Source: Gammaproteobacteria bacterium (GTDB lineage: Bacteria > Pseudomonadota > Gammaproteobacteria > Pseudomonadales > Azotimanducaceae). Taken from it: DNA of 46,438 bases. Position numbers and translations under genes: made by a program. Positions 819-22,294 of the stretch are shown here, one piece after another. The DNA lies in assembly GCA_018666555.1 (NCBI GenBank), contig JABIZD010000088.1:1-46438 (forward strand). The letters are read 5' to 3'. How positions within the stretch are numbered: position 1 is the stretch's first letter; each line of letters starts with the position of its first letter. The notes beneath the pieces were generated by a model. It saw only the letters and a list, made by a program, of their open reading frames with translations. It ran no database searches and was not told the DNA's origin.

Positions 819-2072
819 CTAGTGCGCGACTGCTGCGGCACCATGCTCGTCTATTAAAGCGCCACTGGCAAAACGTTCCAATTTGAAGGGGGCATTAAGC
901 TCATGGGCTTGATCATGGGCCATGGTGTGGGCCAATACCCAGCCTGAACCGGGTGTAGCCTTGAAACCTCCGGTTCCCCAGCCACAATTAAAATAAAGGC
1001 CTTTAACCGGAGTCGGGCCGATAATAGGACAGGCATCAGGACTGACATCCACTATCCCTCCCCACATGCGTAACATTCTGACTCGGCTAAAGGCAGGGAA
1101 TAGCTCAATTATCGCCTGCAAAGCGTGTTCAATGGTTTGAAAACTTCCTCGTTGGCCATAGCCAATATACGAATCAATGCCAGCACCGACTACCAGCTCA
1201 CCTTTATCGGACTGACTGATGTAACCATGAACCGCATTCGACATCACCACGGTATCGAGCACTGGTTTTAGTGGTTCTGAGACAAATGCCTGCAATGGAT
1301 GGCTCTCCAGCGGTAGTCTAAACCCCGCGTAACCGGCAAGCACACTGGCATGCCCGGCAACTACAACAGCCACCTTATTAGCTGCAATATCACCACGACT
1401 GGTTCTAACCCCGCGTATTTGCCCTGCCTGCATATCAAAACCAGTGACTTCACACTGCTGGATGATATCGACGCCGAGCGCATCCGCCGCACGGGCGTAA
1501 CCCCAGGCAACAGCATCATGCCTGGCGACCCCGGCACGTGGCTGCAATGATGCGCCTAAAATGGGGTAACGGGCAGTAGCCGCGGTATTCAAGCCTGGGA
1601 TAGCTTTAGTCAGCTGTTGCCTGCTGACCACCTGCGCATCAATACCATTTAACTGATTCGCAGCCACCCTGCGTTCTATGTCGCGCATATCCTGGAGCGA
1701 ATGACCCAGATTATAAACACCGCGCTGACTGAACATCACATTATAATTAAGATCAGCACTGAGGCCTTCCCAAAGCTTCATTGACTTTTCGTACAACAGC
1801 GAAGCTTCCGTCCACAGGTAGTTGGAACGCACGATCGTGGTATTTCTGCCGGTATTACCGCCGCCGATCCAGCCTTTTTCAAGCACGGCTATATTCCGGT
1901 AACCATGTTCCTTGGCTAAATAATAGGCGGTGGCAAGGCCATGCCCGCCACCGCCAACAATAATAGCATCGTAGCTGGCTTTAGGCTCTGGGTTCCGCCA
2001 GACTCGCGGCCACTTCCTGTTATAATTCAGGGCATTGGCAAACAACGAAAATGCAGAATAACGCCTACTCAC
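819..2072 (-). CDS. soxB: Sarcosine oxidase beta subunit
   Basis: This is a 417-residue DAO-family flavoprotein subunit. After a short N-terminus (RYSAFSLF) comes the dinucleotide fold [20 protein letters not shown] (about residues 34-53). H185 in the motif [12 protein letters not shown] matches the histidine that carries covalent FMN in characterised heterotetrameric sarcosine oxidases. The C-terminal [15 protein letters not shown] is also typical. Translation appears to begin at GTG (2072-2070), because no ATG fits the family N-terminus. The start codon lies on the edge of a 17-base direct repeat (see that entry). The substrate is sarcosine, the last methylated step before glycine. Confidence 0.95.
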
Positions 2073-2160: not shown

Positions 2161-4623
2161 TCACTCTGCAACTACATCGCTGATTCGCAGGCGTCGGTTT
2201 AAAGGGTCATAAGGGCTCTCCTCGACCACGACAGCCGGGTAATTCTGCCCAAGTATTTCAATGCTCATCTCGGTACCGGGTTGGGCAAAAGCCGGTTCAA
2301 CCATGCCCATTGCCAGCGATTCATTAACTCTAAAGCCAAATCCTCCGCTGGTAGCCCTGCCAACTAATTGACCCTCCCTGAGCAGGGCATTGTTACCCAG
2401 TGCATCCGCATCAACTACATCCTTAATCACCAACGTAACGAGCTGGCTTTGAAGACCTTTCGATTGCCGTTCCAATAAAGCCTGTTTACCCAGAAAATCG
2501 CCTTTCCCGAGGTTAACAAAGCGATCCAGAACCGATTCAAAGGCTGAGTATTCAATCGACAGTTCCGTACCTATAATTCGATATGATTTCTCCATCCGCA
2601 TGGAATCCATGGCACGAATACCAAAGGGTTTTAGACCAAGATCTTCCCCTGCCTCGAAAAGCGCATCAAAAAGCTTGTTCTGATACTCAATCGGGTGATG
2701 TAATTCCCAGCCTAACTCACCAACAAAGTTAACCCTCAGTGCATTAACCGAGACACCACCGGCTACGATCTCCTGACCTGTCAACCAGCGAAAGCGTTTA
2801 TCTGAAAAATCTGCTTTCGAGACTCGCTCCATGAGCAGCCGCGCTTTAGGCCCTGCTACCACCAGAACACCGATACTGGAAGTTAACTGGGTGAATTGCA
2901 CTGAGCCATCGCTCGGCATGTGTTTACACAAATAATCGTGGTCTAACCGCTGCATGGCTCCAGCCGACACCAGATAGAAGCAATCAGCAGACTCCCTCAT
3001 AATGGTAAACTCTGAATGCACACCACCGCGCCTGTTCAGAGCATGGCAAAGGCCAATTCCGCCCTGCTTCTTCGGCAACCGATTAGCAACGAAATAATTT
3101 AGAAAGGCTTCGGCGCCCGGTCCGGATACCCGGCATTTGGCAAAGGCCGTCATATCCAGCAGGCCAACATGATTAACTACATTGTTAACCTCCTGCCTGA
3201 CAGATTCGAACCACCGGGACCTTCTAAACGACCAGTGATCCTCGGCGACTTCGCCGTTAGCAGCAAACCAATTGGTTCTTTCCCAGCCAAATTTCTGCCC
3301 AAACACCGCGCCCATGGCTTTCAACCTGTCGTAGCAAGGTGCGGTCCGCAGCGGCCTTGCCGCGGGTCTCTCTTCATCCGGATAATGAATAACAAATACG
3401 CTGGCATAGGCTTCTTCATTTTTTTCAAGCAGATAATCCTTATTGGCATAGTCACCAAACCTTCTCGGCTCGACACCGAGCATATCGATGCTGGGCTCGC
3501 CCTCGACGATCCATTCTGCTAACTGCCAACCTGCACCCCCGGCAGCCGTAATGCCGAAGCTGTGACCTTCACTTAACCAGTAATTTTCCTTGTCCCAGGC
3601 AGGCCCGACGATCGGGTTACCATCCGGCGTATAGGCGATGGCACCATTGTATACCTGCTTGATGCCAACTTCTGAAAATGCCGGCACGCGTGCCATGGCA
3701 GCCTCAATATGCGGTGCCAGCCGGTCCAGATCTTCCTGGAAGAGTTCGTATTCAGCGCGCGGATCAGGGCCATCCACATAACAGGCTGGCGCCCCTTTTT
3801 CGTAAGGCCCTAGGATAAACCCTCCGTTTTCCTCACGTAAATACCACGAACCGTCAGATTCACGCAGCACCGGAAGTTCAGGCGCCGACTGGGCCTGTCT
3901 GGCCTGTAATTCTGGATGAGGCTCAGTGACGATATACTGGTGTTCAACAGGAATCACTGGGATATCCAGACCCACCATAGCCCCCGTCTGCCGGGCATAG
4001 TTTCCTGTCGCCGATATCACGTGTTCACAACTGATATCACCTTGCCGGGTTCTAACAATCCAGTTATCAGAAAAACCACGTTCAATGGCCTCGACAGCCA
4101 CATTACGGTAGATGGTGGCATTCCTCGCTCGGGCTCCTTTAGCCATGGCCTGAGTCAGGTCTGCTGGCTGGATATAACCATCATCAGGATGGTAGATGCC
4201 GCCGACTAATCCTTCTGGATTGCACAAAGGCCAGAGCTTATGTATTTCTGCTGGAGTCAGAAATTCGACATTAATGCCAATGGTTCGAGCCGTTGCCGCG
4301 TACTGATAATACTCATCCATACGATCGTCATTCATGGCTAAGCGCAGATTGCCGACCTGCCGAAAGCCAACATCCTGGCCAGTTTCAGCTTCCAATTGCT
4401 GGTACAGGTTGACCGAATACTTATGAATCTGACCGACGCTGTAACTCATATTAAACAGCGGTAACAGACCGGCTGCATGCCAGGTAGACCCCGAGGTAAG
4501 CTCGGCCTTTTCCAGCAGTACGACGTCCTCACCCCAGCCTTTTTTTGCAAGATGATACAAGGCGCTGACGCCAACCACACCGCCACCGATGACAACTACC
4601 TTAGCCCGAGATTTCATGTTCAC
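2161..4623 (-). CDS. Dimethylglycine/sarcosine dehydrogenase-like flavoenzyme with folate domain
   Basis: This is an 820-residue, two-part enzyme of the DMGDH/SARDH family. The N-terminal half is a DAO flavoprotein: VVVIGGGVVGVSALYHLA at about 9-26, then GSTWHAAG, where H49 matches the histidine that binds FAD covalently in mammalian DMGDH. The C-terminal half (about 430-820) is a GCV_T/aminomethyltransferase fold with the conserved NFVGELGWELH segment, which passes the released formaldehyde to THF. Expected reaction: dimethylglycine to sarcosine plus methylene-THF. It lies between the corrinoid methyltransferase genes and soxBDA, which favours dimethylglycine as substrate; sarcosine or a related N-methyl amine cannot be excluded. 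Confidence 0.88.
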   Translation of the reverse strand: MNMKSRAKVVVIGGGVVGVSALYHLAKKGWGEDVVLLEKAELTSGSTWHAAGLLPLFNMSYSVGQIHKYSVNLYQQLEAETGQDVGFRQVGNLRLAMNDDRMDEYYQYAATARTIGINVEFLTPAEIHKLWPLCNPEGLVGGIYHPDDGYIQPADLTQAMAKGARARNATIYRNVAVEAIERGFSDNWIVRTRQGDISCEHVISATGNYARQTGAMVGLDIPVIPVEHQYIVTEPHPELQARQAQSAPELPVLRESDGSWYLREENGGFILGPYEKGAPACYVDGPDPRAEYELFQEDLDRLAPHIEAAMARVPAFSEVGIKQVYNGAIAYTPDGNPIVGPAWDKENYWLSEGHSFGITAAGGAGWQLAEWIVEGEPSIDMLGVEPRRFGDYANKDYLLEKNEEAYASVFVIHYPDEERPAARPLRTAPCYDRLKAMGAVFGQKFGWERTNWFAANGEVAEDHWSFRRSRWFESVRQEVNNVVNHVGLLDMTAFAKCRVSGPGAEAFLNYFVANRLPKKQGGIGLCHALNRRGGVHSEFTIMRESADCFYLVSAGAMQRLDHDYLCKHMPSDGSVQFTQLTSSIGVLVVAGPKARLLMERVSKADFSDKRFRWLTGQEIVAGGVSVNALRVNFVGELGWELHHPIEYQNKLFDALFEAGEDLGLKPFGIRAMDSMRMEKSYRIIGTELSIEYSAFESVLDRFVNLGKGDFLGKQALLERQSKGLQSQLVTLVIKDVVDADALGNNALLREGQLVGRATSGGFGFRVNESLAMGMVEPAFAQPGTEMSIEILGQNYPAVVVEESPYDPLNRRLRISDVVAE

Positions 4624-4687: not shown

Positions 4688-6718
4688 TCAAGTCGTCGGT
4701 CTACTGCGACGACGACTTCGGCGACCTGATCTATTAGCCGAAGATGCTTTGACAGCAGGCCTGCTGACCTGAGCAAACAAATTCGGGAAATCATCCTGCT
4801 TGTTTGGGAATGCCATGGCGTCGACAAAATAGCCCTGAAATTTAGGTTCAATGGCTGTTTCTATTTTAGCGATTTCTTTGACCAGCGCTTCTATCTCTAC
4901 CCGAGCCGACCGGTCAAGCAAAGCGATCCGGGCCCCTGTCCCGGCCGCATTCCCCGCTGATGAAACTGCGGCCAGTTCACAATCCGGAATCAAGCCGAGA
5001 ACCATGGCATATTTGATATCAATATGGCTGCCAAATGCACCCGCCAAACGGATCCGGTCGACTTTATCAACCCCTTCCCGATCCAGCAGCAACTTAACCC
5101 CTGCATACAATGCCGCCTTGGCAAGCTGAATCTGCCTGACATCATTCTGGGTTACAATTATTTTCTGTTCGCCTTCATCGAGCATGAATGACCAGGTTCG
5201 TCCGTCCTCGAATACGCGCGCGCTTTTCTCACTAACAGTGCCATCAATGACCCCATCCTCACTGAGTACCCCACTGAGAAACATCTCGGCAACCGCCTCT
5301 ATGATGCCGGAGCCACAAATTCCGGTGATGCCAAAATCCGCTATGGAGGCAGCAAAAGCTGATTCATCTGACCAGAGTTCTGAACCAATCACCCGAAAAC
5401 GAACCTCCAGTGTGTCCGGGTCTATCCTGACGCGCTCAATGGCGCCAGGCGCAGCACGTTGGCCACAACTTATCTGTGCGCCTTCAAATGCCGGCCCTGT
5501 TGGACTGGAACAGGCCAGCAGCTTGCCCTCATTTGCGAGAATAATCTCAGCATTGGTGCCTACATCCACCACCAGAGAAACGCCCTTATTCTTCTGTGGC
5601 GCTTCAGCAAGTACCATGGCAGCGGCATCTGCTCCGACGTGACCTGCAATACAGGGCAACACATAGATCTGACCGCCGGCATTAATATCCAGGCCAGCCT
5701 CTCGAGCGGCTATATTCAGTGCCTGGTCAGTCACCAAAGCAAACGGCGCCGAACCTAATTCCACTGGACTCAAGCCGAGAAATAAGTGGTGCATGATCGG
5801 ATTAGCCGCAATGCTGATTTCAAGGATGTCGGTTTTTTCGATTCCTGCCTCTAGAGCAGCGCTGGCAATTAAATCATTGATGCCTTCGCGTACCACCGAT
5901 GTCATTTCTAGCCCACCTTCTGGATGCATCAGCAGGTAGGACACCCGACTCATCAAATCCTCACCGAAACGAATCTGCGGGTTCATAATGCCACTTGTGG
6001 CAACCACGTCGCCGGTCGCCAGGTGACAAAGATGGCCGGCGATAGTCGTCGACCCGATATCAAGTGCAAGGCCATAAATATGCTCATGATAGCCCTGCCA
6101 AATAGCCGTGATGAACGAACCCTGATTAACCGCTACTGTCACCTGCCACTGCCCCAGCCTTAATGCCTGCTGCAAGTGCTGCAGCACCGAGCGATCACAG
6201 CTCAGGTCCTCAAGACCCCACTCCAATGACAAAGCCTCATAGAGACGCTGCAGGTCGCCCTGGGCATCTTCGAGTTCAGCGGCTTTCACTTCGACGTAAT
6301 ACAAGTGGGTGGCAGGGTCTAGAGTGATATCTCGATGTTCTGCCTGCTTGCGCACGACCTGTCGATGCATCTGGCTTTCCGGCGGCACGTCAATCACCAG
6401 ATCTCCTGTGACCAGGGCCTGGCAGCTAAGTCGCTGGTTACTTTGCAAACGAGTGCGTTTCTCGCTAAAACGCGTCTCAACCGCACCTACAGGCGAAAGA
6501 TGGTCAGCTTTTGAACTGATTCCATGTTTGCTGAAATCACCTTCTGTACATAACACCTTACAGCGGCCGCAAATACCTCTACCACCACAAACGGAATCTA
6601 CGTCTACCCCCAGACTACGGGCAGCATCCAGTAATCGGGTTCCCACGGGGAAGTGACCCCGCCTTCCCGACGGCGTAAATACTATTTTTTTTTGGTCTTG
6701 TTCCAAACAATCACCCAC
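4688..6718 (-). CDS. RACo-type corrinoid reactivase (2Fe-2S ferredoxin plus ASKHA ATPase)
   Basis: This is a 676-residue protein that in related systems uses ATP to re-reduce corrinoid proteins oxidised to Co(II). The N-terminal 2Fe-2S domain shows all four cysteines, C44, C50, C53 and C99 (pattern C-x5-C-x2-C...C). A linker and a DUF4445/ASKHA region follow, with ALDIGSTTIAGHL, VDVGTNAEI and LAGAFGSH as the acetate kinase/actin-type nucleotide motifs. The last 15 or so residues are unusual: NRSGRRSRRRSRPTT, with seven arginines. It starts 24 bases after the methyl-THF methyltransferase stop, so it belongs to the same operon. Reactivation is especially needed in an aerobe, where Co(I) is easily oxidised. 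Confidence 0.92.
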   Translation of the reverse strand: MGDCLEQDQKKIVFTPSGRRGHFPVGTRLLDAARSLGVDVDSVCGGRGICGRCKVLCTEGDFSKHGISSKADHLSPVGAVETRFSEKRTRLQSNQRLSCQALVTGDLVIDVPPESQMHRQVVRKQAEHRDITLDPATHLYYVEVKAAELEDAQGDLQRLYEALSLEWGLEDLSCDRSVLQHLQQALRLGQWQVTVAVNQGSFITAIWQGYHEHIYGLALDIGSTTIAGHLCHLATGDVVATSGIMNPQIRFGEDLMSRVSYLLMHPEGGLEMTSVVREGINDLIASAALEAGIEKTDILEISIAANPIMHHLFLGLSPVELGSAPFALVTDQALNIAAREAGLDINAGGQIYVLPCIAGHVGADAAAMVLAEAPQKNKGVSLVVDVGTNAEIILANEGKLLACSSPTGPAFEGAQISCGQRAAPGAIERVRIDPDTLEVRFRVIGSELWSDESAFAASIADFGITGICGSGIIEAVAEMFLSGVLSEDGVIDGTVSEKSARVFEDGRTWSFMLDEGEQKIIVTQNDVRQIQLAKAALYAGVKLLLDREGVDKVDRIRLAGAFGSHIDIKYAMVLGLIPDCELAAVSSAGNAAGTGARIALLDRSARVEIEALVKEIAKIETAIEPKFQGYFVDAMAFPNKQDDFPNLFAQVSRPAVKASSANRSGRRSRRRSRPTT

Positions 6719-6742
6719 ACTTTAAACTTTACCTATCCGCCA

Positions 6743-7639
6743 TTAACGCCGGCGGCGGCCTCTGCCCCGCGCTGCACGATCTGAGCGCACAGCAGTTGGA
6801 TCACGATAGCGCTTTATCCACTGCTGGCAGTTGGGATCATGGCCCATCATCACATCAGCACCTGATACCGCCTGCATGACTTCAGCATGCAATGGACTGG
6901 TAATAGCCGAGGTCATTCCAGCGGCCATCGCCATGGTCAAAAAGGCAGAATTAATGCCATTTCGATTAGGCAGACCAAAACTAACATTAGAAGCACCGCA
7001 AGTGGTGTTGACCTGTAATTCATCTCGCAAGCGACGCACCAGGTGCATCACCTGTAAGCCTGCAGAGTTGATGGCCCCAATTGGCATCACCAATGGATCT
7101 ACCACCACATCGCTTCTGGGAATGCCATAGTCGGCTGCTCTTTCAACAATCTTCTTAGCTACCTTAAAGCGTTCATCCGGATCTTCTGAAATTCCGGTTT
7201 CATCGTTGGATATGGCCACCACAGCAGCACCGTATTTGGCCACTAATGGCAGAACCTGTTCGAGACGCTCCTCTTCCCCTGTCACTGAATTCACCAGCGG
7301 TTTACCCTGGTAGACAGACAGTCCGGCTTCAAGCGCAGCCACAATGGACGAATCAATAGACAAGGGCACATCGGTGACTGACTGAACCAGTTGCACCACG
7401 GCTCTTAACATAGCCGGTTCGTCAGCCAAGGGAATACCTGCATTAACATCGAGCATATGGGCACCGGCGGCGACCTGGGCAAGGGCATCAGCTTCAACTC
7501 GACTATAATCACCTAACTTCATTTCAGCAGCCAGGGCTTTCCTCCCAGTCGGATTGATACGCTCTCCAATAACAACAAAGGGAAGCCCGAAGCCCATCCG
7601 CACTTCCTTTGAGGACGAACTCAAGATCAGTTCCGTCAT
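6743..7639 (-). CDS. Methyltetrahydrofolate:corrinoid methyltransferase (MtgA-like)
   Basis: This is a 298-residue pterin-binding TIM-barrel protein. Family signatures are VIGERINPTGRKALA near residue 25, DVNAGIPLADEP, PLSIDSS, NSVTGEEERLE, and GASNVSFGLPNR toward the end. The expected reaction moves a methyl group between the corrinoid protein and tetrahydrofolate; in this operon the useful direction is methyl-Co(III) to THF, giving 5-methyl-THF. The C-terminus ends in a basic tail, RSDRAARGRGRRRR, beyond the barrel. MetH-like use in the opposite direction is less likely, because no homocysteine domain is present. Confidence 0.92.
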   Translation of the reverse strand: MTELILSSSSKEVRMGFGLPFVVIGERINPTGRKALAAEMKLGDYSRVEADALAQVAAGAHMLDVNAGIPLADEPAMLRAVVQLVQSVTDVPLSIDSSIVAALEAGLSVYQGKPLVNSVTGEEERLEQVLPLVAKYGAAVVAISNDETGISEDPDERFKVAKKIVERAADYGIPRSDVVVDPLVMPIGAINSAGLQVMHLVRRLRDELQVNTTCGASNVSFGLPNRNGINSAFLTMAMAAGMTSAITSPLHAEVMQAVSGADVMMGHDPNCQQWIKRYRDPTAVRSDRAARGRGRRRR

Positions 7640-7680
7640 ACTCTAATTCCTCTTGTCACCGGGTGAATTAAATCAATCAA

Positions 7681-7989
7681 TTACTGTTTTACCTGACCCT
7701 TACCTTTTATCAGGCTGAGCAGGGCATCATCCGTGAACTCGGCCTCAAACCTATCAGCATGAACTTGGGCCAGGGTTTCAGCACTCTCTTGTGTTTCTTC
7801 GAATACGGTCTGTCGACGCCATTCAGATAAATAGGCATCACTACTGCCCTTACCTGCTCGCATCGCAGCTCTATCAACCGCCTCCTGAAACCGTGAACTC
7901 AACAATACCTTAGCTCTGACACGACCTCTCTGGACAATCACCTGAGACGGAATATCACGCCAGTATACGAACGTGCATTTGACTCTCAC
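7681..7989 (-). CDS. Small 'virulence factor' family protein (PF13769-like)
   Basis: This 102-residue protein has the conserved opening VYWRDIPSQVIVQRGR, followed by AKVLLSSRFQEAVDRAAMRAG and DAYLSEWRRQ. I recognise this as the family labelled 'virulence factor' in domain databases, a name with no mechanistic content. It overlaps the end of the DUF1638 gene by 35 bases and lies within the corrinoid operon, so a role in assembly, maintenance or regulation of the methyltransferase is more plausible than virulence. No signal peptide or membrane segment is visible. Confidence 0.8.
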   Translation of the reverse strand: MRVKCTFVYWRDIPSQVIVQRGRVRAKVLLSSRFQEAVDRAAMRAGKGSSDAYLSEWRRQTVFEETQESAETLAQVHADRFEAEFTDDALLSLIKGKGQVKQ

Positions 7990-8605
7990 GTGATCCCTCC
8001 AACTGTTGGTTTAACTTGGTCTGCAACAGACCATAACCGACATGAACCTGCTGAAATTCAAGTTCGAGCCGCTGGGCCGCCTGCTTCGCCAAACCCAACA
8101 GGGTTTTATCTTGCGTCTGGGATAGATAAACCAACTTGCGATAGCCGGCAAAGTAAATCTCTAGCAACTCAGGATGCTGATCAAGCTGCAACGTTTCAAT
8201 GACCAGATATTGAAAATGCCGAGCAAGAAAATCAGTCAGATAAAAGGTTCCTAACTCGGCTTCATGTAATTCGGCGAATTCGCTATGGCCAGCATAGAAC
8301 TCATAACAATGCGCTCCCGGCAGGCGTTGTATCTCACCTTCAGGTGATTCCTCCAGCAGCATGCGGTCCAGTGCCCCACCCGTACCGCAATCGGCATAAC
8401 CAATGAATATCCTCTGGTAATGGGCTCGCTGAGCCTGAATTTTCTTCCTCAGCCGCTCCGTAATCTGCTCCGGCCTGTTGTGCAGGCTGGCTTCAAGGCA
8501 TTGTAAGTGCAGATGATCCCATTGATTAACTCGCTTTAGCGCCTGGATCTCCCTGGCCAGGGCACCGCAGGCAATAACAAGAACTGGATCAGCCACGGGA
8601 AGCAC
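7955..8605 (-). CDS. DUF1638 protein in the corrinoid operon
   Basis: This protein of about 216 residues begins with VADPVLVIACGALAREI. It also contains a cysteine-bearing YADCGTGGALDRML, GAHCYEFYAG and TFYLTDFLARHF, the pattern of DUF1638. The reading frame extends to ATG 8689, but homology begins only after the corrinoid gene ends. I therefore favour GTG at 8605 or 8596, which gives an overlap of only 8-17 bases with the upstream gene. DUF1638 has no established activity, but the conserved Cys/His positions suggest a metal or corrinoid ligand. Its position between the corrinoid protein and the two methyltransferase partners points to a helper role. Confidence 0.85.
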   Translation of the reverse strand: MLPVADPVLVIACGALAREIQALKRVNQWDHLHLQCLEASLHNRPEQITERLRKKIQAQRAHYQRIFIGYADCGTGGALDRMLLEESPEGEIQRLPGAHCYEFYAGHSEFAELHEAELGTFYLTDFLARHFQYLVIETLQLDQHPELLEIYFAGYRKLVYLSQTQDKTLLGLAKQAAQRLELEFQQVHVGYGLLQTKLNQQLEGSRESQMHVRILA

Positions 8606-9296
8606 GACGATTGTGCAGCAGCAACGGTGCCATCTGAGCAGCCTGAGCGGCATCTCGACAATAACCATCTGCGCCAACCGCATGACCAAACTCTTCGTTC
8701 AGAGGCGCGCCCCCGACTAGCACAACGTAGTCATCCCGAATATTCAAACGAACCAGTTCGTCGACAACCACCTTCATATACGGCATCGTCGTGGTAAGCA
8801 AAGCCGACATACCCAAAATATCTGGTTTATGCTCTTCCAGTGCGGCCAGATAATCCTCTACCGAATTATTGATCCCGATATCAACGACTTCAAATCCCGC
8901 TCCCTCCATCATCATGCCAACCAGGTTCTTACCAATATCGTGGATATCGCCCTTCACCGTACCGATGACCATTTTGCCAATGGGTTCAATACCGCTTTCG
9001 ACCAACAGAGGTTTTAAAATAGCCATACCGCCTTTCATGGCATTGGCCGCAAGCAGCACCTCAGGTACAAACAGTATGCCGTCACGAAAATCAACTCCGA
9101 CAATCGTCATACCTGCAACCAGTGCCTCGTTGAGCACTCTTTCCGCACTCCAGTTCCGAGCCAGGAGGATTTCGGTTCCTTCTATGATCTCCTCTCTCAT
9201 CCCATCATAGAGGTCATCGTGCATTTGCAGGACCAGTTCTTCGTCATCTAGCTCCGAGAGAATGATCTCTTCATCGTCATAATTTTCTTCTGTCAT
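8589..9296 (-). CDS. Corrinoid (B12-binding) methyl-carrier protein, MttC/MtgC type
   Basis: This 235-residue protein has the two parts of methyltransferase corrinoid proteins: a helical B12-binding-2 cap (about 30-100) and a Rossmann-like B12 domain. The cobalt-ligand motif D117-I-H119-D-I-G122 is intact, followed by SALLTTTMPYMK and GGAPLNEEFGHAVGADGY. It accepts the methyl group from the MttB-family enzyme and passes it to the methyl-THF methyltransferase. The first 29 residues are remarkable, with 13 Asp/Glu and no Lys/Arg (EENYDDEEIILSELDDEE). That acidic leader lies ahead of the usual start of the cap domain. It is 56 bases downstream of the MttB gene. Confidence 0.95.
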   Translation of the reverse strand: MTEENYDDEEIILSELDDEELVLQMHDDLYDGMREEIIEGTEILLARNWSAERVLNEALVAGMTIVGVDFRDGILFVPEVLLAANAMKGGMAILKPLLVESGIEPIGKMVIGTVKGDIHDIGKNLVGMMMEGAGFEVVDIGINNSVEDYLAALEEHKPDILGMSALLTTTMPYMKVVVDELVRLNIRDDYVVLVGGAPLNEEFGHAVGADGYCRDAAQAAQMAPLLLHNRRASRG

Positions 9297-9352
9297 GAAT
9301 CACAACCTTCTTCAATATGTCTTGTCCAACTATTTATTGATCCCAATACCCT

Positions 9353-10891
9353 TCAATAATCCCTGTCATCAAACTGTGCTTTACGTTGCCCGATGAATTC
9401 AATTAATGCTTCATCCAGAGCCGGTTCCATGGCCGGTGCCTGATAACTGTCCAGCATCTTCCGGCAAATTATATTTGCCCTGGCTGCTGTATCCAGCCCG
9501 CCTTCCTGGTGCCACTGTTCAAAACTGTTGTTGTCGGCTACGGTCGATCGATAAAACGCCGTTTCAAAATTGGCCTGGGTATGACTGGCGCCGAGAAAAT
9601 GGGATCCAGGCCCTACTTCATGAAGCGCGCTCATGGCCTGCTCATTTTCAGACAGGTCCACGCCTTGCAGCAGTACCTGCAGCATATTGGCCTGGTCGAG
9701 ATCCATGATAAATTTTTCATAGCCGACGGTAAGTCCACCCTCTAGCCAACCAGCCGCATGTAACATGAAATTGACACCACACAGCGCTGCTGTCTGCAGG
9801 GTGTTAGCTGATTCATAAGCTGCCTGAGCATCGGCTATTTTTGAACCACACAGTCCCCCTCCGGATCGAAATGGCACACCCAGGCGTCGTGCCAGTGAGG
9901 CGGCTAGATACATGATCTTGCTGGGTTCGGGGGTGCCAAAAGTAGGTGCACCGGATTGCATGGATACTGCAGCAGCAAAAGTACCGAATACCACCGGCAC
10001 GCCCGGGCGTACTAATTGGATGTAGGCCATCCCTGCCAGGGCTTCAGCCAGAATCTGGGTGACCGTGCCAGCAACCGTCACGGGAGACATGGCGCCAGCC
10101 AGTATGAACGGAGAAATCAAAGTGGCTTGGTTATTTTCAGCATAGACTGTCGCCGCTCCCAGCATGGTAGCGTCGAAGGTCATCGGCGAGTTAACGTTGA
10201 TCAAGCTGGTTAATACGGTATTACTCTGAATAAACTCCTCACCAAAAACCAATTTGACCATATCAACCGTATCTTGGGCCCTCTCAGCTGAGGTAACTGA
10301 TCCCATAAAAGGCTTGTCACTATACTTAATATGGCTGTATATCATGTCAAAGTGACGCTTATTGACCGGCACATCAACTGGCTCACAAACTGTGCCACCA
10401 GAGTGATGCAGACCCGGACTCATATAAGCAAGCTTGACCAGGTTGCGGAAATCCTCAATGGTCGCGTAACGTCGCTCGCCATCAAGGTCACGAATAAAGG
10501 GTGAACCGTAGGCCGGCGCCAATACCATTCGGTCTCCACCTATAGTGACACTACGTTCCGGGTTTCTGGCATGCTGGACGTACTCAGCCGGAGCAGAATC
10601 CTGGATAATGGATCGGCACATGCCTCGCGGAAAGCGGACACGATCGCCTTGAACATCGGCTCCGGCTGCCTTGAACAACGCCAGTGCCTGGGGAAACTCC
10701 TTAAAATCTATACCTATCTGCTCGAGTACCGTATCGGCATTTTTCTCAATTAACTCGAGACCAGCATCATCAAGCAATTCATAGTAGGGTATCTTGCGCT
10801 CGATAAACGGCCTGACCTGCTCAATATTGACTTCCCGGGATATTCTCCTGGCTTCGCGTCCACCACTTCTTCTCGTTGATCTGCCGGTCAT
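9353..10891 (-). CDS. MttB-family methylamine/betaine:corrinoid methyltransferase (non-pyrrolysine)
   Basis: This 512-residue protein has typical trimethylamine methyltransferase superfamily features: RKIPYYELLDDAGLELIE near residue 33, GIDFKEFPQALALF, then APAYGSPFI, SGGTVCEPVDVP, and the GAMSPVTVAGTVTQ barrel strand. The frame is uninterrupted, so there is no in-frame TAG for pyrrolysine. Such homologues demethylate quaternary amines such as glycine betaine, proline betaine or carnitine. The linked dimethylglycine and sarcosine genes and the divergent betaine-type carrier favour glycine betaine. The N-terminus is Arg-rich (TGRSTRRSGGREARR; seven Arg in 20). It is the first gene of the operon, and no strong Shine-Dalgarno is seen upstream. 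Confidence 0.93.
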   Translation of the reverse strand: MTGRSTRRSGGREARRISREVNIEQVRPFIERKIPYYELLDDAGLELIEKNADTVLEQIGIDFKEFPQALALFKAAGADVQGDRVRFPRGMCRSIIQDSAPAEYVQHARNPERSVTIGGDRMVLAPAYGSPFIRDLDGERRYATIEDFRNLVKLAYMSPGLHHSGGTVCEPVDVPVNKRHFDMIYSHIKYSDKPFMGSVTSAERAQDTVDMVKLVFGEEFIQSNTVLTSLINVNSPMTFDATMLGAATVYAENNQATLISPFILAGAMSPVTVAGTVTQILAEALAGMAYIQLVRPGVPVVFGTFAAAVSMQSGAPTFGTPEPSKIMYLAASLARRLGVPFRSGGGLCGSKIADAQAAYESANTLQTAALCGVNFMLHAAGWLEGGLTVGYEKFIMDLDQANMLQVLLQGVDLSENEQAMSALHEVGPGSHFLGASHTQANFETAFYRSTVADNNSFEQWHQEGGLDTAARANIICRKMLDSYQAPAMEPALDEALIEFIGQRKAQFDDRDY

Positions 10892-11396: not shown

Positions 11397-12965
11397 ATCA
11401 ACAATAAAGCAAACACTGACAGCTCTTCTCAGGCAGATAATTTCGGCCATATCATCGGTGAAAATAATATCCAGGTTTACGGCCTGGATATTCACAACCC
11501 GGTATTTATGGTCTCCGCTGCCTTATCTTTAATCCTAGTGCTAATCACGCTTGCCTTCCCTGAGGCCTCGGGCCTCTTTTATATCGAACTGCGAAGCTGG
11601 GTGACGACCCAATTCGATTTCTTTTTCCTGATATCAGCTAATATTTTTATTATCTTCTGCTGCGCCATTGCGCTCTCTCCATTTGGCAGGATCCGTCTTG
11701 GTGGCGACGAGGCCAGACCGGCATACCGATACACTTCCTGGTTGGCTATGCTATTTGCAGCTGGCGTGGGTATCGGCCTTATGTTCTATGGCGTTCATGA
11801 ACCGGTTACCCACACCTTAAACCCACCACTGAATATCGACCCAAATGATATCGAGCGGGCTAGTGCCGCAGGGATGTCTGCGGCAATTTATCACTGGGGC
11901 CTGCATGCCTGGGCGATCTACGCCGTAGTGGGCCTGGCATTGGCCTACTTTACCTTTAACCGCGCCATGCCCATGACCCTGCGCTCGGCCTTTTTCCCCC
12001 TGTTAGGTAAGGCAGTCTGGGGACCGCTCGGAGATATCATTGACATTGTTGCCGTGCTGGCAACTGTCTTTGGGCTGGCGACCTCTCTGGGAATCGGGTC
12101 TGAGCAGATTGCCGCCGGGCTTTCCTATCTGTTTGATATCAATGCGACCAATGGCACCAAGGTACTCTTGATCATAGCGATAGTCTCCATCGCACTGGTA
12201 TCGGTGATATTGGGTCTCGATAAAGGAGTCAAGCGCCTGAGTGAAATCAATCTCGCGCTAGCTGCCCTATTACTGCTATTTGTCTTCTTTGCCGGGCCGA
12301 CCCAGGTCATTCTAGTCAACTTCGGCAGCATAACGATGGACTACCTTTATTACCTGCCTGCATTAAGTAACTGGGTCGGCCGCACCGATGACCTGTTTCT
12401 GCATGGCTGGACCACCTTTTACTGGGCCTGGTGGATCTCCTGGTCTCCTTTTGTTGGGATGTTTATCGCCCGTATCAGCTACGGTCGCAGCATCAGGGAG
12501 TTCGTCCTATGGGTCCTGATCATCCCAACTATCATTGGCCTTATCTGGATGGGAACACTTGGCGGCGTCGCACTCGAACAATTGCTCAACCTGGGATACC
12601 AAGGGGTCGCTGAGTCCCCACCGGAGCTGGCGCTGTTCAAAATGCTCGAGGGGTTGCCGTTTGCTCAATTAGTCTCTGGGGCCTGCGTTCTTCTGATCGC
12701 CCTGTTTTTCGTTACATCAGCTGATTCAGGATCCCTGGTGGTCGACACCTTAACTGCTGGAGGTAAAACCGATGCCCCTACCAGGCAACGAGTTTTCTGG
12801 TGCGCGACGACAGGCCTGGTCGCCATAGCACTCATGCTCGGTGGTGGCATGAACTCGCTGCAGGCTCTGACAACGGCCATTGGCCTGCCGTTTGGGCTAC
12901 TACTGTTACTAATGTGTGTGAGCCTAGTAAAAGGACTTCAACAGGAGCAACCTAAGCCGCCCTAA
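11397..12965 (+). CDS. BCCT family betaine/choline/carnitine transporter, probable non-canonical ATC start
   Basis: This is a twelve-TM secondary carrier of the BCCT family. Visible hallmarks, numbered from the first ATG (11508), are the GVGIGLMFYGVHEP segment of TM3 at about 86-99 and the substrate aromatic box W130, W135, Y138 in HWGLHAWAIY, with the same spacing as W189/W194/Y197 of BetP. The WAWWISWSPFVGMFIARIS stretch of TM8 is also present. GxGxG in TM3 is the Na+-coupled betaine type. Family homology (VYGLDIHNPVF) starts upstream of 11508, yet that upstream frame contains no ATG, GTG or TTG back to the stop at 11361. An AAGAGG (11382-11387) lies 9 bases before ATC at 11397, the most likely start. 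It is divergent from the demethylation operon and a good candidate for the supplier of its substrate. Confidence 0.9.
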   Translation: MNNKANTDSSSQADNFGHIIGENNIQVYGLDIHNPVFMVSAALSLILVLITLAFPEASGLFYIELRSWVTTQFDFFFLISANIFIIFCCAIALSPFGRIRLGGDEARPAYRYTSWLAMLFAAGVGIGLMFYGVHEPVTHTLNPPLNIDPNDIERASAAGMSAAIYHWGLHAWAIYAVVGLALAYFTFNRAMPMTLRSAFFPLLGKAVWGPLGDIIDIVAVLATVFGLATSLGIGSEQIAAGLSYLFDINATNGTKVLLIIAIVSIALVSVILGLDKGVKRLSEINLALAALLLLFVFFAGPTQVILVNFGSITMDYLYYLPALSNWVGRTDDLFLHGWTTFYWAWWISWSPFVGMFIARISYGRSIREFVLWVLIIPTIIGLIWMGTLGGVALEQLLNLGYQGVAESPPELALFKMLEGLPFAQLVSGACVLLIALFFVTSADSGSLVVDTLTAGGKTDAPTRQRVFWCATTGLVAIALMLGGGMNSLQALTTAIGLPFGLLLLLMCVSLVKGLQQEQPKPP

Positions 12966-21403: not shown

Positions 21404-22294
21404 TTATTGATGTTGGCTAGTGAGTGCCTCGGCCAGCGCTTCGATATCCGTCGGCCCGATGCCGCAGCAACCACCGATAATGGTGGCACCTGCCTGAGCC
21501 GCCCGTAGACACTGATCAACAAAATAAGCTGTGGTCACATCGGTTCGTCGCCCGGTATATAATTCATTATCGAGGGTCCAGCCTTCCGGAACTTTACCCA
21601 TGCGGTTTGCATAGCAGCCAAGTGGCTTAGCTGTCAGTGCCTTTAATTCAATGAGACCGATCTCTATTACTTCCGGACAGGTACAATTGAGCATATAACC
21701 CGCGACATCTAGATAATCTATCTTCAGGAAAGCTTCCTTTAGGCTTTCACCGCTGCGTAACCCAGTTCCAGGCTCCTCATTGAGCGTCCAGGCAACATAG
21801 ACGGGTTTTCCGCCCCCGTATTGTTTGGCCTGGGAGGCTGCGTGCTCCGCTTCTATTGCCGAAGACATGGTCTCACAAATGAAAAAATCAACCGACGGTC
21901 GAAGCGCCTCAACCATATTGCGATAAATTGGCCTGGCAATTTCCTCGGAGGGCACCAGATCCGGCCGATAGCTTTCCGACAGAGGTGGAATAGACCCGGC
22001 AACCAGTACCTTTTCGCTACCGGCATCTGCAGCCTGCCTGGCCAGCTTGCCTGCTAATTCGGTGAGCCGGATATACTCTGATTCAAGGTTTTCCTTGCCC
22101 AGATAACTGGGGATAGTGCAATAGCTATTGGTGATAATGATCCGCGCGCCGGCATCTATAAAGTCTCGATGCACATCGATAACGATCTCCGGTTCTTCAA
22201 TCAGCGCCATAGCAGACCACAGACCTTTACCACCGGTACTAATCCGCTTCTGCAGTTCACCACCCATTCCTCCATCAAGCACCGTAACTTTCAC
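21404..22294 (-). CDS. Homocysteine S-methyltransferase family protein
   Basis: This 296-residue zinc methyltransferase belongs to the MmuM/BHMT family. The zinc cysteines are visible as C204 in NCTCPEV and C276-C277 in GGCCGIGP. The opening VLDGGMGGELQKR is the usual barrel start. Translation begins at GTG (22294) with a strong GGAGGA at 22301-22306. Possible methyl donors are S-methylmethionine, betaine or another methylated compound. It is followed directly by three ABC transporter genes in the same operon, so the donor may be what that transporter imports. This is an inference. Confidence 0.9.
   Translation of the reverse strand: MKVTVLDGGMGGELQKRISTGGKGLWSAMALIEEPEIVIDVHRDFIDAGARIIITNSYCTIPSYLGKENLESEYIRLTELAGKLARQAADAGSEKVLVAGSIPPLSESYRPDLVPSEEIARPIYRNMVEALRPSVDFFICETMSSAIEAEHAASQAKQYGGGKPVYVAWTLNEEPGTGLRSGESLKEAFLKIDYLDVAGYMLNCTCPEVIEIGLIELKALTAKPLGCYANRMGKVPEGWTLDNELYTGRRTDVTTAYFVDQCLRAAQAGATIIGGCCGIGPTDIEALAEALTSQHQ

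Follow-up and report, generated by a model that had tools for sequence, protein, structure and literature searches.

Closest described systems and the locus in the window

Two described systems come closest to the locus analysed here, i.e. the aerobic MtgBCDE system of Ruegeria pomeroyi (PMC12478193) and the split methionine synthase of Phaeobacter inhibens (PMC5764234). Both are built from the same gene families and share its operon neighbours, namely DUF1638, the reactivase and genes of betaine breakdown. In these accounts the corrinoid protein MtgC is described as the central component with which the remaining parts interact (PMC12478193, PMC5764234), and both the DUF4445 reactivase and DUF1638 have roles in P. 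inhibens, the DUF1638 homologue being required for methionine synthesis (PMC5764234).

The window, i.e. the whole stretch of 46,438 nucleotides that was analysed, harbours an aerobic MtgBCD glycine-betaine methyltransferase/split methionine synthase together with its reactivase (Table 1), a system that has already been published. Its MtgC, a protein of 235 aa that combines PF02607 and PF02310, is separate from MetH, which forms a frame of 1243 aa of its own in the same genome; MetH apart, it is the only match in that genome at E 1e-20. Its top NCBIfam matches are MtgC models, with scores under the cut-offs of those models. A PF06253 MtgB and a pterin-binding MtgD are encoded alongside, the DUF4445 reactivase and the DUF1638 protein are present, and an MtgE homocysteine methyltransferase is found in the same genome outside this operon. 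The BCCT transporter and the dimethylglycine- and sarcosine-type dehydrogenases provide a genomic context that fits the predicted betaine demethylation and methionine synthesis; the substrate of the MtgB-like enzyme is presumably glycine betaine, and the FAD/GCV_T dehydrogenase presumably catalyses a later step in betaine breakdown.

Identification of the window MttB as the pyrrolysine-containing MttB (TIGR02369) was rejected, its 243.7 bits lying far under the equivalog cut-off of 525 bits. None of 93 sequences examined had parts of the system fused into one frame, and a scan of viral contigs for MttB returned no relative. The start codon of the DUF1638 gene is uncertain, as its listed TTG start overlaps the MtgC gene.

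Table 1. Genes of the window and the charged ends of their products
Feature	Position	Strand	Basis
MtgC-type corrinoid protein, hub (B12-binding cap and B12-binding domain)	8589..9296	-	Pfam PF02607 + PF02310
Acidic N-terminus of MtgC (residues 1-29), 13 Asp/Glu, 0 Lys/Arg	9210..9296	-	Sequence
MttB-superfamily methyltransferase, MtgB-like	9353..10891	-	PF06253, 744 bits
Arg-rich N-terminal tail of MtgB/MttB, 7 Arg in residues 1-20	10832..10891	-	Sequence
MtgD, methyl-THF:corrinoid methyltransferase, pterin-binding	6743..7639	-	PF00809; NF005719 over cut-off
Arg-rich C-terminal tail of MtgD, 8 Arg in last 14 residues	6746..6787	-	Sequence
ASKHA/DUF4445 corrinoid reactivase, RamA/RACo-like	4688..6718	-	PF14574, PF17651, PF17650, PF00111
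Arg-rich C-terminal tail of reactivase, 7 Arg in last 15 residues	4691..4735	-	Sequence
DUF1638 protein, without C-tail	7955..8689	-	PF07796
PF13769 'Virulence_fact' protein, operon member, without C-tail	7681..7989	-	PF13769
FAD/GCV_T dehydrogenase, dimethylglycine-dehydrogenase-like, tail-less control	2161..4623	-	PF01266, PF01571
Sarcosine oxidase beta-subunit-like protein	819..2072	-	TIGR01373, 702.6 bits, over cut-off
BCCT transporter, betaine/choline type	11508..12965	+	PF02028 and TIGR00842 over cut-off

Complementary charged ends and their conservation

The first-pass annotation had described an acidic end on MtgC and Arg-rich ends on three partners, and all four are present in the sequence at the positions it gave; the starts of MtgC and MttB cannot lie further upstream, with in-frame stops 1 and 5 codons before the listed starts, respectively. 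It had also known of no description of such tails. The enzyme system itself is published, and for the tails we likewise found no description in open PMC papers, which was the scope of the search. In particular, we found nothing on charged tails, or on what holds the parts together, in the main text of PMC12478193, no mention of arginine-rich ends in that of PMC5764234, and none of arginine-rich or positively charged tails in those of PMC7857596 and PMC12366255.

As a chance background, we used 765 mechanically called ORFs of at least 120 aa from 1.02 Mb of the same genome, excluding the contig of the window. The Arg C-tail rule was passed by 10 of them, the Arg N-tail rule also by 10 and the acidic N-terminus rule by 2, giving about 1e-7 for four different families of one operon all passing (an informal product of rates, with either end allowed), and these rates rule out a chance origin of the charged ends. 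One MttB paralogue is included in each of the two sets of Arg-tail matches. The N-tail rule is the weakest, and in the window it also flags the PF13769 protein, whose basic first strands satisfy it, and the SoxB-like protein. A Tat signal on MttB was dismissed by eye, the Arg pair being followed by no hydrophobic stretch.

The tails had further been placed outside the folded domains. AlphaFold2 models of MtgC and MtgD agree with this for residues 285-298 of MtgD (pLDDT <50) and for residues 1-8 of MtgC, the only ones of its acidic segment predicted to be disordered, but not for residues 9-30 of MtgC, which are modelled with confidence and of which 18-30 form the helix that starts the cap domain; i.e. 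the acidic segment is predicted to be mostly folded.

Counting only frames with a stop codon, and close homologues only when the match extended to the C-end, MtgD has a basic C-terminus in 84/86 close homologues and the reactivase in 88/90, as opposed to 0/12 distant reactivases. Of the 63 close homologues of MtgC, 61 have an acidic N-terminus, with a net charge between -6 and -16. The net -6 rule is missed by L125, which is cut by the contig start and still acidic, and by L264 (Paracoccus), with a net charge of -5. The tail rule is loose, and 3/8 distant MtgD-like proteins pass it owing to a basic last helix. The charged ends are kept in named alpha-, beta- and gammaproteobacteria as well as in relatives of a 'Deltaproteobacteria' MAG.

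When one common C-tail rule was applied to the same loci, 79/86 MtgD and 85/89 reactivase proteins passed, compared with 4/54 for MetF, 7/45 for the MetF companion, 0/66 for DUF1638, 0/62 for PF13769 and 0/17 each for the DMGDH-like and SoxB-like proteins. Complementary charge is thus found on the hub and its clients and is mostly missing from non-clients, the exceptions being the few C-tails of MetF and its companion and the N-end matches of the companion and of PF13769 (6/62). Of the unassigned mechanically called ORFs of these loci, 67/958 passed the C-tail rule, a number apparently swamped by false frames, and the counts for the own genome and for named families were used instead.

This distribution bears on the possibility that the tails bind another polyanion, such as RNA, the nucleoid, a membrane or polyphosphate, and thereby determine where the clients are located within the cell, with no relation to the acidic N-terminus of MtgC. 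Ends rich in Arg and Lys are indeed frequent in RNA-binding proteins, and by eye some background matches resemble ribosomal proteins or SmpB. However, this would leave unexplained both the strong acidity of the MtgC N-end and why C-tails occur on MtgC clients and are mostly missing from MetF, DUF1638, the dehydrogenases and other PF02574 enzymes, and we regard it as rather unlikely. Functionless low-complexity ends inherited from G+C-rich repeats are highly improbable. Although many tail Arg in the window are encoded by CGN codons, the number of Arg does not rise with G+C over loci ranging from 0.36 to 0.71 (rho -0.30 for MtgD and -0.01 for the reactivase), which excludes G+C-driven Arg runs. 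Moreover, the charged end is preserved while the preceding linker varies, Lys stands in place of Arg in some tails, and the tails are found in unrelated families and at either terminus.

The last point is seen among the MttB proteins, of which 95 of 116 frames were kept (at least 430 aa after start choice, duplicates removed). Under a loose N-tail rule (5 Lys/Arg and net +3 within about the first 38 residues), 82 bear an N-tail, 4 a C-tail and 9 neither, and one subfamily without the N-tail bears its basic tail at the C-end. The position of the tail is free among MttBs, with the charge retained. In Dongia mobilis, six MttB matches are found with one MtgC match.

A basic tail was also predicted beforehand for MtgE, a further presumed partner of MtgC, and it is present in 12/12 orthologues from 12 genomes. 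Among the remaining PF02574 proteins whose C-end could be read, which came from 10 of the same genomes, it is present in 0/16 (the full set comprised 36 matches, 30 with loci and 28 with a readable C-end). The MtgE of the window's own genome (G000:C39:76453-77292) shares 47% identity with the Phaeobacter italicus protein and has a tail with 5 Lys and 3 Arg, i.e. net +8, and the PF02574 protein in the window itself (21422-22282) is tail-less. Bmt by itself was active in vitro (PMC12366255). Bmt/MtgE may work alone or jointly with the other parts, and the common tail speaks for the latter.

With several basic tails per particle, oligomeric clients could also form a dynamic network or condensate with acidic MtgC, in place of one-to-one docking. 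In line with this, MtgD tails favour Arg over Lys (R/(R+K) 0.96 vs 0.68 in the body), in Methanosarcina MttB assembles as a trimer of dimers, i.e. a hexamer (PMC9842639), and MtgA of Desulfitobacterium is a homodimer (PMC7154762). These oligomers are, however, those of proteins from other organisms, the acidic part of MtgC is predicted to be mostly folded, and the MtgE of the own genome has more Lys than Arg. We consider such condensation unlikely.

Tailed and tail-less systems

Across loci, hub and client charges are correlated when taken raw (rho -0.34 to -0.44), but independent contrasts for MtgC and MtgD give r -0.23 (p 0.11), and once descent is accounted for, the charges of the tails show no clear covariation. 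Presence and absence are associated (p 4e-4 and 5e-5, uncorrected for descent): MtgD is tailed in 59/60 loci with a close, acidic-type MtgC vs 4/8 with only a distant one, and the reactivase in 54/55 vs 1/5, these counts likewise being uncorrected for descent.

Independent variation of the tails between partners had been named in advance as refuting the docking system. Such variation is seen in part: in G241, MtgD is still tailed, the reactivase tail has been lost and the sole corrinoid match at E 1e-30 is tail-less. In G248, only distant corrinoid proteins are present in the assembly and yet MtgD and the reactivase are tailed, and in L266 a reactivase with a basic end adjoins distant corrinoid proteins.

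The genomes G242 and G368 offer a comparison within single genomes: all four MttBs that adjoin a tail-less corrinoid protein of their own are tail-less, and eight other MttBs (five in G242, three in G368) are tailed. Some MttBs of these genomes without an adjoining corrinoid gene are also tail-less (L231, L232, L235, L236 and L242). In L276 and L279, the MttB next to a tail-less corrinoid protein keeps a basic N-terminus, so that only 4/6 MttBs in this position are tail-less; both genomes have further corrinoid matches. On the MttB tree, from which the contig-cut L118 was omitted (as was L215, with its unsafe start, from the state counts), the minimum number of changes between tailed and tail-less is one, and this contrast therefore rests on few independent events.

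The first-pass annotation had proposed an electrostatic docking system that limits Co(I) oxidation in aerobes. The electrostatic part has gained ground, with opposite charges conserved and the prediction for MtgE borne out, but the oxygen part is unsupported, and we consider it quite unlikely that aerobes have evolved the tails to protect Co(I) from oxidation by holding the complex together. In its favour, solved relatives, which we take to come from anaerobes (2qne/9yce for MtgB, 1y80, 1f6y/2yci/4o0q and 3zyy), have at most 16 residues past the matched domain vs 18-36 in the window, as estimated from where the matches lie and how long the chains are, and the one reactivase examined from each of Acetoanaerobium, Vescimonas and Thiodictyon is tail-less. 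Against it, G242 contains an acidic MtgC with tailed MttBs together with tail-less corrinoid proteins and tail-less MttBs, seven alphaproteobacterial loci, possibly of aerobes (L265, L267, L268, L270, L272, L277 and L278), have distant tail-less reactivases, and the haloarchaeon Halomicrococcus, presumably aerobic like the rest of its group, carries a comparable cluster that lacks basic tails. In view of G242 and Halomicrococcus, a tie between the tail and aerobic life as such was set aside as unsupported.

A putative common socket on MtgC compared with known hubs

Literature on homologues suggests that MtgB would demethylate a quaternary amine, probably glycine betaine, and load the methyl group onto the MtgC-bound cobalamin, from which MtgD would pass it to tetrahydrofolate and MtgE could pass it to homocysteine, with the reactivase rescuing oxidised cobalamin. 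Because all of them would act on its cobalamin, MtgC would have to visit four kinds of active site. The tails are conserved, are concentrated on MtgC clients and were successfully predicted in MtgE. From this we infer a contact between tail and acidic cap that would aid methyl transfer: the short basic tail of each client, disordered in the MtgD model, would attach reversibly, by charge, to the acidic cap at the N-terminus of MtgC and so tether the client to one common socket, and several MttB enzymes, MtgD, MtgE and the reactivase could thus share a single hub. That the tails are interchangeable tethers of this kind, replacing the covalent linkers of MetH, is the reading towards which we lean, as sequence comparison makes it somewhat probable. 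The acidic residues of MtgC, in a segment modelled mostly as folded helix, could also serve another purpose, and DUF1638, which is needed in the same pathway (PMC5764234), bears no tail, which counts against the tether reading.

It is tempting to speculate further, albeit tentatively, that charge acts as a code of plug and socket, in which any enzyme that acquires a basic tail at either end would join the clients of a single acidic cobalamin hub. If so, one MtgC would serve several corrinoid methyltransferases, a methionine synthase and the reactivase with no need for covalent linkers, perhaps within a multivalent network, and the tail could be used to find clients not yet recognised. The tether idea would supply a cheap sequence mark for hub clients and a design rule for swapping cobalamin methyltransferase modules.

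Among known systems, MetH passes the same chemical modules, i.e. homocysteine, folate, cobalamin and reactivation, by one cobalamin domain (PMC5764234), but its modules are covalently joined in one polypeptide, while those of the window are separate proteins with charged ends. In methanogens, the corrinoid protein MtaC carries an extra N-terminal domain that appears to assist docking to its methyltransferase (PMC9842639). This addition is a folded domain fitting one partner, MtaB, whereas MtgC has an acidic segment facing several basic-tailed families. MtqC of Eubacterium limosum is one corrinoid hub common to MtpB, MtcB and MtyB, which are encoded apart, and MtyB and apo-MtqC appeared to co-elute (PMC8604678). 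Its host, unlike those of the aerobic MtgC system, is an anaerobe, and the likeness drawn here is one of hub sharing. Outside cobalamin chemistry, the acidic C-terminal tail of SSB makes that protein a hub that recruits many different enzymes in DNA maintenance; its partners use folded basic pockets, whereas in the MtgC system the clients themselves bear the basic tails.

Charged ends in the operon and their conservation

The operon in the window is the aerobic MtgBCD system, already known from Ruegeria pomeroyi (2025; PMC12478193), parts of which were described earlier from Phaeobacter inhibens as a split methionine synthase (PMC5764234). The genome comprises 4.17 Mb in 217 contigs and appears to be gammaproteobacterial, judging by the label of its nearest named locus (L047). 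The four charged ends claimed by the first-pass annotation, i.e. those of the corrinoid protein MtgC, the MttB enzyme, MtgD and the reactivase, are all present exactly as described. Among 765 ORFs from elsewhere in this genome (about 1.02 Mb, excluding the window's contig), the Arg-rich C-tail and N-tail rules were each passed by 10 (an MttB paralogue being one of the 10 in either case) and the acidic N-terminus rule by two; the N-tail rule also marked two further window proteins. That the ends lie outside the folded domains holds for the MtgD tail (residues 285–298, disordered in AlphaFold2) but only partly for MtgC, of which residues 1–8 are disordered while 9–30 are well predicted, with a helix at 18–30.

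Features of the window and of compared loci (L) and contigs
Feature	Location	Remark
MtgBCD operon	window, 10891 down to 497	MttB-superfamily enzyme, corrinoid protein, DUF1638, PF13769 protein, pterin-binding methyltransferase, ASKHA reactivase, dimethylglycine-dehydrogenase-like protein, two sarcosine-oxidase-type proteins
BCCT transporter		adjoins the operon
PF13769 protein	window, 7681–7989	Pfam name 'Virulence factor'
Second homocysteine-methyltransferase family protein (PF02574)	window, 21422–22282	without tail
Second locus of the window's genome (L046)	G000:C39:62000–81096	two more MttBs, one N-tailed, one C-tailed; MtgE close by
MtgE of the window's genome	G000:C39:76453–77292	basic tail, 5 Lys and 3 Arg
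Reactivase	L092, 2358–5370 and 9985–11944 (this row and the next)	62% identical to the window's, ending just ahead of the tail
Corrinoid protein	see preceding row	sole match in its genome at E 1e-30, tail-less; adjoins a UroD-type-methyltransferase-like protein
Halomicrococcus gelatinilyticus plasmid cluster	L260, 11158–15864	adjoins FAD dehydrogenases; apparently an archaeal counterpart

Loci for comparison were gathered by scanning named species with the reactivase as anchor (80 loci), and also from the window's class, plasmid records and further genomes. In one script, the net charge of MtgC before the cap domain was -6 or lower in 61 of 63 proteins close to the window's (median -11), this stretch being free of Lys and Arg in 43 of the 63, and basic tails were found in 84/86 close MtgDs and 88/90 close reactivases. 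The linker ahead of the charged end varies while the end itself is kept, and the number of Arg residues shows no rise with G+C across loci. Sinorhizobium meliloti has the full set; Azoarcus has the charged-end set with no MttB in the stretch, and in Paracoccus the set is weak (MtgC net -5, MtgD tail slightly below the rule).

Other proteins of the same loci served as controls. The C-tail rule was passed by MetF in 4/54, its short companion in 7/45, DUF1638 in 0/66, PF13769 in 0/62, and the DMGDH-like and SoxB-like proteins in 0/17 each, as against 79/86 for MtgD and 85/89 for the reactivase, with MtgC acidic in 58/62. Arg-rich N-ends occurred in 34 of 48 MttBs, but also in MetF companions (13/45), PF13769 (6/62), DUF1638 (2/66), MetF (1/54) and SoxB-like proteins (1/17), so the N-end rule is less specific than the C-end rule. 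The Pfam name of PF13769 looks misleading, as the protein is a conserved operon member with 62 matches in the loci.

Tails on MtgE and the MttB enzymes

If the tails address MtgC, one would be expected on the homocysteine methyltransferase MtgE, which is said to act through MtgC but is encoded outside the operon. In 12 genomes, all 12 MtgE orthologues are tailed, with 5–8 Arg within the last 22 residues; of the other PF02574 proteins, 16 had a readable C-end and all 16 lacked a tail.

A basic N-tail is present in 82 of 95 MttB proteins; four have only a C-tail and nine neither (one of them cut by the contig). The four C-tailed proteins group in a single clade, which is also represented in the window's genome. 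The genomes G242 and G368 belong to the group of a 'Deltaproteobacteria' MAG. In them, the four MttBs adjoining their own tail-less corrinoid protein all lack a tail, while five other MttBs in G242, which also has an acidic MtgC, and three in G368 are tailed; some MttBs without an adjoining corrinoid gene are tail-less as well. In related genomes, MttBs adjoining an acidic MtgC are N-tailed (L211, L212, L217). Since the minimum number of changes on the MttB tree is two, independent events are few. G242 and G368 each hold at least 10 MttB matches, with corrinoid proteins of differing kinds (L238–L257); in their phylum, an MttB match was found in only 7 of 140 genomes, six above the cut-off.

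Covariation, exceptions and oxygen

Raw correlations of charge size are present between MtgC and MtgD (rho -0.44), the reactivase (-0.34) and MttB (-0.42), but are not clear after independent contrasts (MtgC–MtgD r -0.23, p 0.11; MtgC–reactivase r -0.17, p 0.24). Independent variation of the tails, named beforehand as speaking against docking, occurs in part: MttB N-termini are basic in L276 and L279 although the adjoining corrinoid protein is tail-less, L266 has a basic-ended reactivase adjoining distant corrinoid proteins, and the G248 genome has a tailed MtgD and reactivase, yet only distant corrinoid proteins were found. In the G241 genome, where the sole corrinoid match at E 1e-30 has no tail, an early stop removed the reactivase tail and the MtgD tail was kept.

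The first-pass annotation had also proposed that the tails limit Co(I) oxidation in aerobes. Judging from match positions and chain lengths, solved relatives, which we take to be proteins of anaerobes, leave little room for such tails, and there was no tail on the single reactivase examined from each of Acetoanaerobium, Vescimonas and Thiodictyon. Against the proposal, tailed and tail-less systems coexist in one genome (G242), and distant tail-less reactivases occur in 7 of 15 alphaproteobacterial loci chosen by likeness to a tail-less corrinoid protein (L273 and L275 are ordinary tailed loci). Furthermore, the corrinoid protein, reactivase, DUF1638 and MtrH-like protein of the haloarchaeon Halomicrococcus, presumably aerobic with a salty cytoplasm, all lack basic tails; this single case would fit an electrostatic device failing in a salt-rich cell. 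A role in limiting oxidation is unsupported, and the pattern seems better explained by many clients sharing one hub than by oxygen.

A putative tether and its known counterparts

From the distribution of the tails we infer that they contact MtgC, probably acting as tethers that would draw each client to its acidic cap. Docking of partners to a hub through a charged tail has a precedent in SSB; for corrinoid methyl transfer, we found no earlier report of such tails in the open-access papers searched, in agreement with the first-pass annotation. A parallel for a docking aid at the N-terminus of a corrinoid protein is MtaC, where an N-terminal addition appears to help docking (PMC9842639). In MetH, the modules are joined by linkers, whereas those of MtgBCD are separate proteins; here, the tethers may do for the split enzyme what the linkers do in MetH.
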